Positions 10,216 through 57,951 of a DNA stretch of 64,000 nt are shown here, piece after piece. The notes under the pieces were generated by a model that was given only the letters and a program-made list of their open reading frames with translations, did not search any database and was not told the origin of the DNA. Location: NCBI RefSeq assembly GCF_901447155.2, contig NZ_LR588414.1, positions 265,320 through 329,319 of the forward strand. The letters run 5' to 3'. The number at the start of each line of letters is the position of its first letter. Within the stretch, counting starts at the first letter, position 1. Source of the stretch: Peptoniphilus catoniae. Its GTDB lineage: Bacteria; Bacillota; Clostridia; Tissierellales; Peptoniphilaceae. The translations under genes and the position numbers were made by a program.

Positions 10216-11509
10216 ATGAAAACTTTGACCACAAAAGAAGAGCTCGGACAAGTTGCCAAAGATGTTTTCTATGAAGCGGGCGATGACGAAGAAAAAGATG
10301 GACCACTGGCACTGGGACTGCATAAAAAAGGATACTTCCACGAAGTCGTAGACATGGATAAATGTCTAATCGTCCATCCAGACTTCGACAAAGTGAGAAT
10401 AAAAACTAGAGAATATTTCCAAGGAATACCATTTTACAATAGAAGAACCCACGAAGGAGTCCTAAGACATCTAGCCATAAGACGCACCGCATCGGGGGGA
10501 AATGCTTATCAACCTAGTCACATCGTCCCAAGAAGAAATAGACACAGAAAACTATGTAAAAGCTATGCTAGAATTGGACCTCGAAAGCGAAATCAAAGGA
10601 ATCCTCCACACCATAAACGACAGGATGTCTGATGCAGTAGTAAAAGACGAACTCCACATCCTCTACGGAAGAGACTACGTAGTAGAAAAATTAATAGACA
10701 TGGAATTTAAAATCGGACCATTTTCATTTTTCCAAACCAACACCTACTCAGCAGAAGTACTGTATACAGAAGCAGAAAAAATCTTAAAAGACAAAGGCGA
10801 CTACCTCTTGGACCTATTTTGCGGCACAGGAACCATCACATCCATCCTCGGCAAAAATAGAAAAGAAGCCCTAGGAGTAGAAATCGTAGAAGAAGCAGTG
10901 GACTCAGCAAGAGAAAACGTAGAACTAAACGGACTAAAAAATATAAAATTCATCTCAGGAGACGTCTACGAAGTAGTAAAAGAATTGGAAAATAAATACG
11001 ACATCATCGTAGTAGACCCACCAAGAGCAGGAATAGGGAGAAAAGCAATCGAAAAAATCATAGAATTCGGCGTAGAAAATATCCTCTACATCTCCTGTAA
11101 CCCAGTGACATTTGTAGAAGATATCAAAACATTTAGAGAATGTGGATATAGGGAAAGATCAGTCCACGGCGTCGACCAATTCCCAAGGACAAACCATGTC
11201 GAGACGGTAGCACTTTTGTCCAAACTCGATGTCGATAAGTATATAGACGTTGAAATTGAGCTGGATGAGCTGGATTTGACAAGTGCTGAAAGTAAGGCAA
11301 CATATGCTCAGATCAAAGAATATGTTTGGAATAAATTTGAATTAAAAGTTTCGACATTATATATTGCACAGATAAAAAAGAAATGTGGAATAGAATTACG
11401 AGAACATTACAACAAGTCTAAAAAGGAGAAACAAATTATTCCACAGTGTACACCTGAAAAAGAAGAAGCCATCATGGATGCCTTGAGACACTTCAAAATG
11501 ATTGAATAG
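10216..11509 (+). pseudogene. Chimeric, frameshifted RlmD-like methyltransferase with C-terminal extension
   Basis: Three parts. Residues 1-26 (MKTLTTKEELGQVAKDVFYE) match the start of the transglutaminase-like genes at 42827 and 58052. From LHKKGYFHEVV it is RlmD-like, without the TRAM domain and iron-sulphur cysteines. The frame breaks in a run of six G (10494-10499): removing one G restores TASGEMLINLVTSSQ. The rest (10502-11509) keeps the SAM motif LLDLFCGTGTITS, DPPRAGIG, the catalytic ISCNP and NHVETVALLSK. After that comes an extension of about 95 residues (ATYAQIKEYVWNKFELKVST to ALRHFKMI) absent from the chromosomal RlmD. The missing N-terminus and frameshift argue against full function. 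Confidence 0.75.
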
Positions 11510-11658
11510 AAAGGAAGACTGCCTATGACTCTTAGCATTTAAGACATTCATGCTCGGTATAGGAACAGCTATTATTCCTTTCTTGCAAGGTATCAATTAG
11601 AAAATAGGCTCAATATAAAGATTGATAGGATCATTTTTATATTTAAAGGAGCGTTGAA

Positions 11659-11979
11659 ATGATTGATAAAAGCAACAAAAAATTTTGGGATAAATTTGCT
11701 AAGTAGTATGCCCATTATATGAAAAAAGATAAAGAGGTTTATGATAAAGTTTGTGAATATCTTAGTCCTCATTTGAATAAAGATATGTAGGTGCTTGAAC
11801 TTGCTTGTGGAGTAAGACCTTTCTTATATGATAAATTTGATGTTACAAAATATAAGAATTACAAGTTGTTGGAAGATTATGATAATGAAAACTTGTTTGA
11901 TGTGGAAGAGTATTTAAAGCAAAAAGGGAGGGCGAAGTTGACACCAAATACAAGGATATTTAGGGTATTATATATATGA
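11659..11979 (+). pseudogene. Decayed copy of the 8665 methyltransferase, fused to unknown sequence
   Basis: From ATG 11659 (good AAAGGAG) the translation follows the 8665 methyltransferase closely: DKSNKKFWDKFAK, then YAHYMKKDKEVYDKVCEYLS, then VLELACG. Two in-frame TAG codons (11704 and 11788) interrupt it. Similarity ends at about 11810; the remaining 55 codons (FLYDKFDVTKYKNYKLLEDY and on) belong to something I do not recognise. This is a truncated duplicate. Confidence 0.75.
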
Positions 11980-12007
11980 TATAAATTAAGAAAGAGGAGA
12001 AAAAACA

Positions 12008-12316
12008 TTGGTTGATTATTTATTCAATTCATCTGGAGAATGGATCTGTTTCAAAGTTAATAAATTTATTTGGGACAAAAATGGAAAATTGATAGGATGG
12101 CTTCCGTGGGGAGATAATGAAGTTGTTACAATGAAAGGAGATTATTTAGGGACTATTGTAGATAAGGATAGAATTTATTATTTTACAAATCATCCTTATA
12201 GAGGCTATCCAGGTTATCCAGGTTATCCGGGTTATCCAGGCTATCCAGGTTATCCAGGATTTGCTGGATATAAGCCTTTACCATCGGGTGCAAAAGATAT
12301 AGTTATAAAAAAATAA
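12008..12316 (+). CDS. Probable 4-fold beta-flower-type small protein with Gly-Tyr-Pro repeats
   Basis: 102 residues from TTG 12008, which has AGAGGAG at the right distance. The first 65 residues show repeated short strands with the spacing GEWICFKVNKFIWDKNGKLI, then GWLPWGDNEVV and GDYLGTIVDKDRIYYF, which is how I remember the 4-fold beta-flower family. A GYP segment repeated six times follows (12203-12256), then a short basic tail. There is no signal peptide. Function is unknown. It sits alone between decayed genes and a terminator. Confidence 0.6.
   Translation: MVDYLFNSSGEWICFKVNKFIWDKNGKLIGWLPWGDNEVVTMKGDYLGTIVDKDRIYYFTNHPYRGYPGYPGYPGYPGYPGYPGFAGYKPLPSGAKDIVIKK
12203..12256 (+). repeat. 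Six tandem 9-bp units encoding Gly-Tyr-Pro
   Basis: Six copies of GGTTATCCA with silent third-position changes inside the preceding small gene. Nine-base units keep the frame, so copy number could vary without breaking the protein. Confidence 0.9.
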
Positions 12317-12341
12317 AAGGATTTGTTTATTTGAAATTGAG

Positions 12342-12375
12342 AAAGCAGTAAGTCTAATATGATTTGCTGCTTTTT
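12342..12375 (+). terminator. Intrinsic terminator
   Basis: AAAGCAG and CTGCTTT arms with a T run, 26 bases after the small Gly-Tyr-Pro gene. Confidence 0.7.
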
Positions 12376-12453
12376 ATATCCAACAATTTGAAGGAGGTAA
12401 AAATGGTAAGGATAAGAAGTCCTACTTTAAACAATTTAATGTATAAGATATTT

Positions 12454-12485
12454 AGCGATTGAAATATAAGTTCAGTCGCTTTTTT
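12454..12485 (+). terminator. Intrinsic terminator
   Basis: Arms AGCGATTGAA and TTCAGTCGCT (one G-T pair) with a T run, upstream of the SSB-like gene. A possible 19-codon reading frame (ATG 12403, with AAGGAGGT) ends inside the hairpin, so this may be a leader or attenuator rather than a plain end signal. Confidence 0.65.
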
Positions 12486-12518
12486 AATTGAAATTTTTAG
12501 ATTAAGGAGAAGAAATTA

Positions 12519-56819: not shown

Positions 56820-56840
56820 ATTTTATTTTCATATCGAACC

Positions 56841-56903
56841 ATGTCAAAAGTATTTGACATACAATTTAAAAAAGCATATACTTATGTCAAAAGTATTTGA
56901 CAT
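56841..56903 (+). promoter_or_regulatory. Promoter flanked by two identical 20-bp palindromic operators
   Basis: ATGTCAAAAGTATTTGACAT occurs at 56841-56860 and 56884-56903. The promoter is TTGACA (56854-56859, inside the first copy), 17-base spacer, TATACT (56877-56882). The second copy covers the expected +1 region up to the ribosome binding site. Centre spacing is 43 bases, about four helical turns. Confidence 0.85.
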
Positions 56904-56914
56904 GGGAGGTTAAT

Positions 56915-57241
56915 ATGAAGAGTATAAATTTTTTTGAATCAAATCAAATTCTGTTTTTAAGTTTTCTATGGCTATTTCTTCTTGCATCATTAATATGTAC
57001 TTTAGTTATGATAGTTACTTTAGTTAAAAAAGGTGATGAAAGGAAAGGATATATTGTAAAAAAATCAAGTTTAACTGCATTAATAGTGGGGATAATATTT
57101 TTAATTATAAATATAATTTGGAATATTTTCTTTGAGCAAAATTCTAGGATTGGATTTGAAGATAGCCCGATAATTTATATCGGAATAATATCTATCGCTT
57201 TTAATATTTCACAACTAATTAACATGAAAAAATATAGGTGA
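56915..57241 (+). CDS. Membrane protein paired with HTH repressor
   Basis: 108 residues from ATG 56915 (GGGAGG upstream; a TTG at 56897 lies inside the operator and is unlikely). Three hydrophobic helices (about 12-36, 55-76, 88-103): FLSFLWLFLLASLICTLVMI, SSLTALIVGIIFLIINIIWN and IIYIGIISIAFNISQLI. I do not recognise the family. Six bases separate it from the HTH gene, so the two form an operon under autoregulation. Confidence 0.65.
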   Translation: MKSINFFESNQILFLSFLWLFLLASLICTLVMIVTLVKKGDERKGYIVKKSSLTALIVGIIFLIINIIWNIFFEQNSRIGFEDSPIIYIGIISIAFNISQLINMKKYR

Positions 57242-57247
57242 TCAAAA

Positions 57248-57439
57248 GTGAAGAATCACATAAAAGAAATTAGAACAGAAAAGGGATTATTTCAACAAGA
57301 ATTGGCTGATATCTGCGAAGTAAGTAGGCAAACAGTTAATGCTATTGAAAATAATAAGTACGATCCGACGCTTGAACTTGCTTTTAAGCTGGCAGCAGCA
57401 CTAGATACCACAGTAGACAATCTATTTATATATGAATAA
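57248..57439 (+). CDS. Xre-family HTH repressor
   Basis: 63 residues from GTG 57248: HIKEIRTEKGLFQQELADIC, EVSRQTVNAIENNKYDPTLE and LAFKLAAALDTTVDNLFIYE. This is the compact YgzD/HTH_3 type with the recognition helix SRQTVNAIE. AGGTGA at the end of the preceding gene provides the binding site. It most likely binds the twin palindromes at 56841-56903 and represses its own operon. Confidence 0.85.
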   Translation: MKNHIKEIRTEKGLFQQELADICEVSRQTVNAIENNKYDPTLELAFKLAAALDTTVDNLFIYE

Positions 57440-57463
57440 AAAATATCAACTTAAATTTTTATG

Positions 57464-57491
57464 AAAGCATCTAAATTGTAGGTGCTTTTTT
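57464..57491 (+). terminator. Intrinsic terminator
   Basis: AAGCATCTA and TAGGTGCTT arms (one G-T pair) with T run, 25 bases after the HTH gene. The following 250 bases to 57740 are AT-rich and hold nothing I can identify. Confidence 0.7.
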
Positions 57492-57739
57492 ATTTCAAAA
57501 TTATATATAGTTAATTATTTATAAATTTATTATGTGGGTAAGGTGATAATATATTATATATTATAAGAAATTTTGTGCTATTCTAAATTAGAAGATAGAA
57601 AGCTTTGAGATTTTAGCATAAACGAGATTTTTTAAAAAAATAATAATGTTATCTATACTTTTTTATTAAGAGGCCAAGAATAAGGATGCTCATCATTAAT
57701 GAATAAAATAAAGTAGTGAAATAGAATTTAATAAAAAAG

Positions 57740-57951
57740 GAACCCATTAAGAAATCGAAGAGTATGTTTTTGAAGAACATGGTTTAAAGGTTTCGAATCT
57801 TTAAACCGCTTAGGTAAAGTCAAAATATTACTTGAAAGAAAGATTAAATTACAATATAAGTAAAAAAAGCAATAACAGAAACTTGATACGCTTAGAAGAA
57901 AAAGAAATGGCAATAGAAGATGTCTTTAAGTTTTTTTGGAATGATTTAAGA
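57740..57951 (+). pseudogene. Decayed RlmD C-terminal extension domain
   Basis: Pieces of the extension seen at 11236 and 42436 are readable over changing frames: EEYVFEEHGLKVSNL, LKERLNYNISKKS and EEKEMAIEDVFKFF, followed by WNDL. Stops and small indels interrupt it. As at 42405, a transglutaminase-like gene follows about 100 bases later, and the two intergenic regions begin with the same GGAATGATTTAA word. Confidence 0.75.

Follow-up and report, generated by a model that had tools for sequence, protein, structure and literature searches.

A serine recombinase domain probably exchanged in frame with the RlmD ending by elements integrating in Peptoniphilus catoniae and its relatives

We analysed a 64,000-nt stretch of the Peptoniphilus catoniae genome (NCBI RefSeq assembly GCF_901447155.2, contig NZ_LR588414.1, positions 265,320 to 329,319; hereafter the window), in which a coding region for the rRNA methyltransferase RlmD runs into a C-terminal extension, or tail, of 94 residues. 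With a probability of roughly 0.7, we propose that this tail belongs to a large serine recombinase (LSR) as its C-terminal domain, that it is swapped in frame with the RlmD ending when the element encoding the recombinase integrates, and that it acts as a control part of the recombinase. The anatomy of this exchange, as read from sequence comparisons, is strongly supported. LSR genes whose 3' ends carry the same attachment (att) core as the tails, together with natural open reading frames (ORFs) joining an LSR to the tail in frame, indicate that the tail is the LSR's own C-terminal domain.

Tail copies, att cores and recombinases in the window

Three tail-like stretches were detected in the P. 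catoniae genome, every one of them within the window. The original prediction placed each behind an RlmD end, joined exactly after HVETVALLSK. This holds for copy 1, a 94-residue tail (11225-11506, stop to 11509) in frame with an RlmD C-terminal region and directly following HVETVALLSK, which is the only copy with an RlmD end before it. Copy 2 (42435-42713, stop to 42716; ORF 42408-42716) is a homologous tail, with an alignment score against copy 1 of 0.0 compared with a mean of -62.3 and a maximum of -50.5 in 1000 shuffles. It follows METVALLSK, and its core is preceded by 12 unrelated residues and no RlmD end. Copy 3 (~57715-57936) has decayed: three in-frame stops interrupt it, and upstream of it no core was seen.

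The rlmD under copy 1 is a truncated, frameshifted fragment without a start and with a frame break near 10500 (ORFs 10216-10632 and 10502-11509). It shares 96% identity over 241 residues with the rlmD product of a genome from another genus of the same family (G126) and is 57% identical to the copy on contig C7 of its own genome, so the fragment probably came by transfer, perhaps together with an element. The rlmD of G126 itself (L271, compared with window 10502-11224) bears a copy-2-type tail. Two tailless full-length rlmD-like genes are present in the P. catoniae genome, one on contig C7 (68188-68910, ending HVECVALLIKK) and one in the window (5911-7194, ending HVEALALLVKERSDAEK).

A scan with a degenerate DNA pattern for HVETVALLS, allowing up to three mismatches, gave four sites in the window (11195, 36730, 42405 and 51091) against 0.05 expected. 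Two of them mark the left ends of tails, and two are cores at recombinase ends, those of LSR B and LSR C; the corresponding core of LSR A (21905) was identified separately. Each intact tail has a co-oriented LSR downstream, 10.7 kb away between copy 1 and LSR A, and the core of the tail recurs in the same frame at the 3' end of this LSR. The left and right sites of element A, attL A and attR A, have GAGACGGTAG in common in the same codon phase, and in both LSR A and LSR C the core is followed by a short RlmD-like ending. LSR B overlaps its core in a frame different from its own. All three recombinases have the Resolvase (PF00239) and Recombinase (PF07508) domains, PF13408 being named for LSR A. 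We read the window as an array in which element A is followed by element B, whose right end holds LSR B, then by a further stretch of DNA containing element C, and last by a decayed copy.

10216..11224, + strand: rlmD fragment, ends HVETVALLSK; ORF 10502-11509 matches TIGR00479 RlmD and PF05958
11195..11224, + strand: attL core of element A, encodes HVETVALLSK; GAGACGGTAG common with attR A
11225..11509, + strand: tail copy 1, 94 aa, fused to the RlmD fragment; attributed to LSR A as its C-terminal domain
20261..21937, + strand: large serine recombinase A; PF00239, PF07508, PF13408; ends NNEQVETVVLIQKM, RlmD-like, in the attL frame
21905..21937, + strand: attR core of element A, short ending VETVVLIQKM; DNA rightwards matches DNA behind rlmD elsewhere
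34983..36833, + strand: large serine recombinase B (other type); 3' end overlaps the att core at 36730 in another reading frame
42405..42434, + strand: left core of element C, encodes HMETVALLSK, no RlmD before it
42435..42716, + strand: tail copy 2, left end of element C
49453..51135, + strand: large serine recombinase C; ends GNVESVALMSKVEGK, the attR of element C, with the core read in the same frame as at the tail
57715..57936, + strand: decayed tail copy 3; shortly beyond the window end there is an LSR fragment (G000:C2:329706-330056)

The tail as a recombinase domain

Sixteen A/C-type LSRs, LSR A and LSR C included, read to the core without a tail, and all sixteen end 8-11 residues after VE. 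Their endings are mostly RlmD-like and vary with the host (VVLIQKM, IALIQKM, VVLMSRK, MVLMSRV, VALMSKVEGK and others). This set leaves aside L240 (stop before the core), the tail-bearing L241 and L257/L266, N-masked pieces and fragments short of the core. Elements with one end in rlmD and the other in the integrase gene occur in, e.g., G002, G028, G071, G094 and G111, and in window element A, where rlmD is a fragment. The RlmD-tail fusion and the LSR are co-oriented on one contig, ~12-42 kb apart, in nine genomes (G002, G008, G028, G038, G071, G094, G111, G118 and G126), the LSRs of G008 and G118 carrying a stop. LSR matches at E 1e-30 were found in 15 of 20 genomes with the tail in a long RlmD-type frame (that of G073 being distant), and at E 1e-15 in 7 of 13 genomes searched, with only G532 above 50% identity. 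A reciprocal exchange of 3' parts between target and integrase gene was found by comparing genomes, not one strain before and after integration, and it is in frame for LSR A and LSR C.

The tail had been expected on RlmD alone, but many LSRs have it as their C-terminal domain, and in phages it also occurs as a protein by itself. Among 223 tail matches in 202 sequences, the upstream residues belong to RlmD in 72, to an LSR in 71 and to neither in 80 (phmmer, E 1e-5); the sets of matches overlap in part, and genome and viral loci were picked by tail similarity (for the genome collection, the best 80 of 574). The att core was recognized in 17 of the 71 LSR-tail ORFs and not in the other 54, by a pattern that misses degenerate cores such as those of L042 and L044. 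The LSR-tail ORFs closest to LSR A are L024 (96%), L016/L051 (93% over 114 residues), L138 (78%) and L129 (75%), followed by L146 and L044 (65%) and L042 (55%). They include human faecal phage records (L042 and L044, as is L010) and IMG/VR contigs (L129, L138 and L146). In Anaerococcus vaginalis (L051/L016), the LSR-tail ORF is flanked by further tail and LSR copies, an arrangement that looks like a tandem junction, and several core-less LSR fusions sit in back-to-back LSR arrays. The tail is thus a recurrent C-terminal domain of LSRs; judging by sequence, it is directly preceded by the att site in those LSRs that target rlmD.

Tail similarity tracks LSR similarity across 12 elements (Mantel r 0.44, p 0.006); for tail and RlmD the correlation is r -0.08 (p 0.58, 8 elements). 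G126 was not part of this comparison, and the G118 LSR stops before its core. Tail and LSR types are mixed in three elements, a reshuffling that shared att cores would permit.

Five loci (L132, L136, L140, L142 and L121) have back-to-back LSR genes, each with the tail domain, and a VETV-type core in the second and not the first. Stand-alone tail relatives of ~65-75 residues were found in phage contigs L192-L198 and L200 (in a longer frame in L200); the one in L195, of 67 residues, is encoded directly before two probable terminase genes. We also considered B-type LSRs as owners of the tail and rejected them, as the neighbouring tail ORF uses a different frame (at 10 loci, some of which share a genome). 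We read these tail ORFs as tandem junctions, though this is not proven.

The tail is foreign to RlmD

Whether relatives carry the tail as a native part of RlmD was a point on which the original prediction turned, and they do not. A survey of 31 genomes gave 30 best RlmD loci, the window's own included. Of the 29 from other genomes, 27 end 0-8 residues past the match; G002 has this tail, also on a second RlmD paralogue, and G043 has a divergent tail. The genus of G028 (31 genomes, 30 rlmD loci) contained two tailed loci, one pseudogene and 27 short endings, and five RlmD orthologues 82-84% identical to G028's tailed RlmD bear five different short endings. Matches to the tail in any context, partial and decayed copies counted, occur in 58 of 130 family genomes at E 1e-3 and in 14 of 398 genomes across the phylum at E 1e-10, with our own genome included in both counts.

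Among 66 RlmD-tail fusions, 21 pairs have tail DNA at least 95% identical, and in 19 of these the RlmDs are at most 50% identical, so that near-identical tails sit on unrelated RlmDs. Conversely, RlmDs at least 70% identical form 14 pairs, seven of which have tails less than 75% identical. RlmD identity was established by alignment for G038 and G126 and by homology searches for others, and was inferred from frame length alone in G044, G118, G008, G013, G073, G065 and G051. Some loci are duplicates: L014 repeats part of L006, the names L051 and L016 refer to a single place, and G541 is apparently the same genome as G071.

Further variants were seen at this site. The RlmD tail on a Haemophilus haemolyticus contig (L055) is 97% identical in DNA to that of Streptococcus mitis (L053), reflecting either transfer or a mislabelled contig. 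A divergent second tail type (KVHTAYIAEVKR...) occurs at the same HVETV core in L203, L319, L325, L327 and L343, and is found fused to RlmD, fused to an LSR or overlapping a B-type LSR. In L318, RlmD stops right after the core (VLLVRE*), and the tail sequence past the stop is still conserved in frame.

rlmD as a docking site with variable endings

DNA upstream of rlmD is conserved (72-92%) in all 29 other loci of G028's genus. The RlmD ending after HVE and the downstream DNA vary together in the 28 of 30 loci that were parsed (the tailed L290 and the pseudogene L303 were left out). An ALIQK/R-type ending is found in 12 of the 28, with downstream DNA common to six LSR right ends including that of window LSR A. 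The VLMSRK ending is found in six, with downstream DNA common to two LSR right ends, and VLMTRVAPTK in two; the remaining eight are singletons, G028's tail among them.

Window DNA from 21900, running from the core rightwards, matches the DNA directly behind rlmD at 91-95% in L206, L281, L286, L288 and L299 and at 85-93% in L287, L293, L297, L298, L301, L304 and L305, among the matches listed. In L287, where rlmD is whole and ends ALIQKM, an AbiEi-like gene follows, as at window 22250-22837. These matches suggest that short endings, too, are at least sometimes brought by elements. The right flank of the G028 element matched DNA downstream of rlmD in its genus only over 25-26 bp at the core, because downstream DNA differs between genomes; we relied instead on the comparison of ending class with downstream class and of window DNA with rlmD flanks. 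The earlier idea that an integrating element has the tail at its left end, and that integration puts it in place of the RlmD ending, is supported.

An element-encoded "cap" for RlmD had also been suggested. In 44 short RlmD endings (hand-entered, some from the same genomes, tailed ones left out), the first nine positions mostly read VE-x-[VIL]-x-L-[MLI]-x-[RK], a motif that VETVALLSK keeps. The description as a cap thus suits these first residues, but not the 94-residue domain behind them.

A proposed exchange between rlmD and the recombinase gene

We hypothesize that attP, the attachment site of the element, is part of the recombinase gene, where it encodes an RlmD-ending-like peptide (VETVxLLSK) directly upstream of the tail domain, and that attB is the 3' end of rlmD. 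Because attP falls within an RlmD-ending-like coding stretch, recombination between attP and attB would trade the two endings in frame. RlmD would gain the core and a domain of ~94 residues, and the recombinase would retain the core and a short ending (8-11 residues after VE) taken from RlmD or from the next docked element. A one-way replacement of the RlmD ending, as originally suggested, describes only half of such an exchange, which would be reciprocal: the tail belongs to the recombinase, and the recombinase receives an RlmD-like ending. Since the core keeps the terminal motif of RlmD, a tailed rlmD can probably still make a folded enzyme.

In the excised form, the domain is most likely an extra DNA-binding or control part of the recombinase. 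As integration removes it, the two states would encode two forms of the recombinase, and the odds are about even that direction or activity is in this way written into the state of the DNA. The domain is thus likely a state-dependent part of the recombinase. On RlmD the tail would be mostly a passenger, and modification of RlmD is unlikely to be its purpose.

Several observations weigh against this proposal. The RlmD-tail fusion and the LSR are ~330 kb apart in G011, at opposite contig ends in G088 and on different contigs in G117 and G051. A weak overall correlation between tail and RlmD remains among the 66 fusions (Mantel r 0.24, p 0.0005), and within the 8 elements for which RlmD was compared, the correlation between tail and LSR falls to r 0.40 (p 0.053). 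At E 1e-15, no LSR match was found in G383 and G065, whose tails are open, or in G343, whose tail is cut by the locus end. An excised circle was not seen, and terminal repeats were found in none of 11 whole contigs.

Nature and constraint of the tail domain

Searches of Pfam (at the curated cut-off), NCBIfam and solved structures with the tail gave nothing above threshold, and neither Pfam nor NCBIfam linked the tail to a known DNA-binding family. Among PDB sequences, the best match, eS24 at E 0.094, was treated as chance. The best PHROG match of the two tails is phrog_27283 (E 5e-5 and 0.004), a family whose function is unassigned there and which is also the best match of the stand-alone 66-residue relative from L192. 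A weak structural model suggests that the tail is possibly a small three-helix, LacI-like helix-turn-helix.

Median ratios of nonsynonymous to synonymous substitution (dN/dS) were 0.09 between tails on RlmD (397 pairs), 0.22 between tails on LSRs (13 pairs) and 0.11-0.22 for other combinations, computed from 140 tails with 0.1 < dS < 1.5 and pairs that are not independent. Such low values indicate that the domain is kept as a protein, though dN/dS cannot say in which state. In G388 a stop separates the tail from RlmD, and in G516 one falls within the tail; the upstream RlmD is open in both, and neither genome has an LSR A match at E 1e-15; G076 is a third such case, from its table row only.

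Alternative explanations

The tail might instead be selected on RlmD, as an element-encoded module that alters or preserves the rRNA methyltransferase, for instance to maintain host fitness or to benefit from RlmD expression. Tail matches in the genome collection do sit mostly on RlmD (59 of 87, among the best 80 of 574 loci), and RlmD-borne tails are those with the median dN/dS of 0.09. However, the same tail DNA serves both states, so this constraint is not assignable to RlmD. Moreover, most RlmDs examined do without the tail, it is cut off or broken by a stop behind the open RlmD of G388 and G516, it forms the C-terminal domain of LSRs that are core-less by pattern (54 of 71, two with a degenerate core), and the window RlmD that bears it is a fragment. 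We consider this explanation unlikely.

We give similarly little credence to the RlmD-tail fusion as an active, integration-dependent regulator, in which the DNA-binding domain of the LSR, placed under the host rlmD promoter, would repress or co-direct the recombinase in trans and resist or steer further docking. If it were true, a ribosome-modifying enzyme would double as the element's sensor of being integrated.

It is also rather improbable that the tail works independently as a DNA-binding factor, for example an excision factor, which has a start of its own and is merely fused to whatever precedes the att core. Copy 2 has an ATG at the core with no RlmD or in-frame LSR before it, and the 66- and 67-residue phage relatives, the former with its best match to phrog_27283, stand alone. 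Yet both RlmD and the A/C-type LSRs read into the core in frame, and many occurrences (HVETV...) have no start codon at the core. A normal, vertically inherited RlmD extension in this lineage, which RlmD-tail fusions in many Firmicutes might suggest, was ruled out almost entirely by the short endings elsewhere, including the five on close orthologues of G028's RlmD, by the patchy occurrence in family and phylum, and by tail and RlmD histories that disagree despite the weak correlation noted above.

Other features of the window

15863..17506, + strand: MobA/MobL relaxase of element A; PF03389
18566..19306, + strand: phage replisome organiser-like protein of element A; PF09681
22250..22837, + strand: AbiEi-like antitoxin gene near the left end of element B; annotation of a pAPRE01 homologue

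A repeated cargo gene start, possibly transglutaminase-like, lies behind tail copies 2 and 3 (42842-42897 and 58064-58119). A related start at 10219-10274 is joined to the rlmD fragment at 10216, which suggests an old recombination at that place. A 300-bp repeat, 99% identical, is found at 49096-49395 and 63688-63987; at the former position, part of a second gene seems fused behind the start of a DNA methyltransferase (ORF 48753-49484). Orphan tails (L012, L026, L027, L035 and L069) have in common a sequence in front of HVETV, ..IHTDHSS or the like, which in the window is at 42369-42404 and may be where another type of element ends on its right side.

Significance and comparison with known systems

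Seen in this way, the RlmD extension offers a testable example of a recombinase that changes form with the integration of its DNA, through the natural on/off fusion of a C-terminal domain, and bears on how large serine recombinases set direction. It would also account for a set of odd rlmD genes whose products are extended at the C-terminus, and suggests that elements docking behind the gene of a conserved rRNA methyltransferase repeatedly rewrite the end of the protein. What appears new is that the exchange is in frame, that the piece exchanged is a conserved domain outside Pfam and NCBIfam, and that RlmD endings vary with the docked DNA. In a limited search of open papers, we found neither an in-frame exchange, nor an exchanged piece described as a conserved LSR domain, nor element-linked variation of the RlmD ending.

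In mycobacteriophage BPs, the product changed by integration is reportedly a repressor, whereas here it would be the recombinase and a host enzyme. The integration-dependent immunity of BPs (PMC4557955) resembles the present case in that use of the att site reportedly changes the product of a regulatory gene. In engineered fusions of a serine integrase with a recombination directionality factor (RDF), the fused small protein switches the direction of recombination; the passages of PMC5737554 describe an artificial fusion that favours attL x attR, whereas the natural fusion here is predicted in the excised state.

Other elements are known from the same target. Passages of PMC4288039 give an 18-bp core such as GCATCACGTGGAGTGTGT for Phi-m46.1 and other elements at the 3' end of streptococcal rum, at the same HVE-coding position as here, and do not discuss protein endings. 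An element of S. dysgalactiae has 18-nt repeats in rlmD, according to passages of PMC13214566. The myxophage Mx8, as described in passages of PMC4701971, likewise has attP within its integrase gene, and its integration replaces a 112-residue C-terminus by 13 residues, giving a less active product. Unlike the LSRs here, the Mx8 integrase is of the tyrosine type, and those passages mention no domain added to a host enzyme.

The closest relatives of the proposed exchange are streptococcal integrative and conjugative elements (ICEs) in rumA. An exchange of 3' parts between rumA and a serine integrase gene had already been published in 2016 (Ambroset et al. 2016, PMC4701971, in the passages drawn on here). 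In those ICEs, as here, a single LSR acts at the rumA/rlmD 3' end, attR lies inside the integrase gene, and the excised integrase has another C-terminus; according to those authors, the two integrase forms probably differ in function, with Mx8 as a precedent. The same passages state that the exchange changes the frame of both proteins and name no exchanged domain. Unlike this, the exchange of LSR A and LSR C is in frame and moves a conserved domain common to other LSRs. By analogy, the window elements may be seen as an in-frame variant that works like the streptococcal rumA ICEs.

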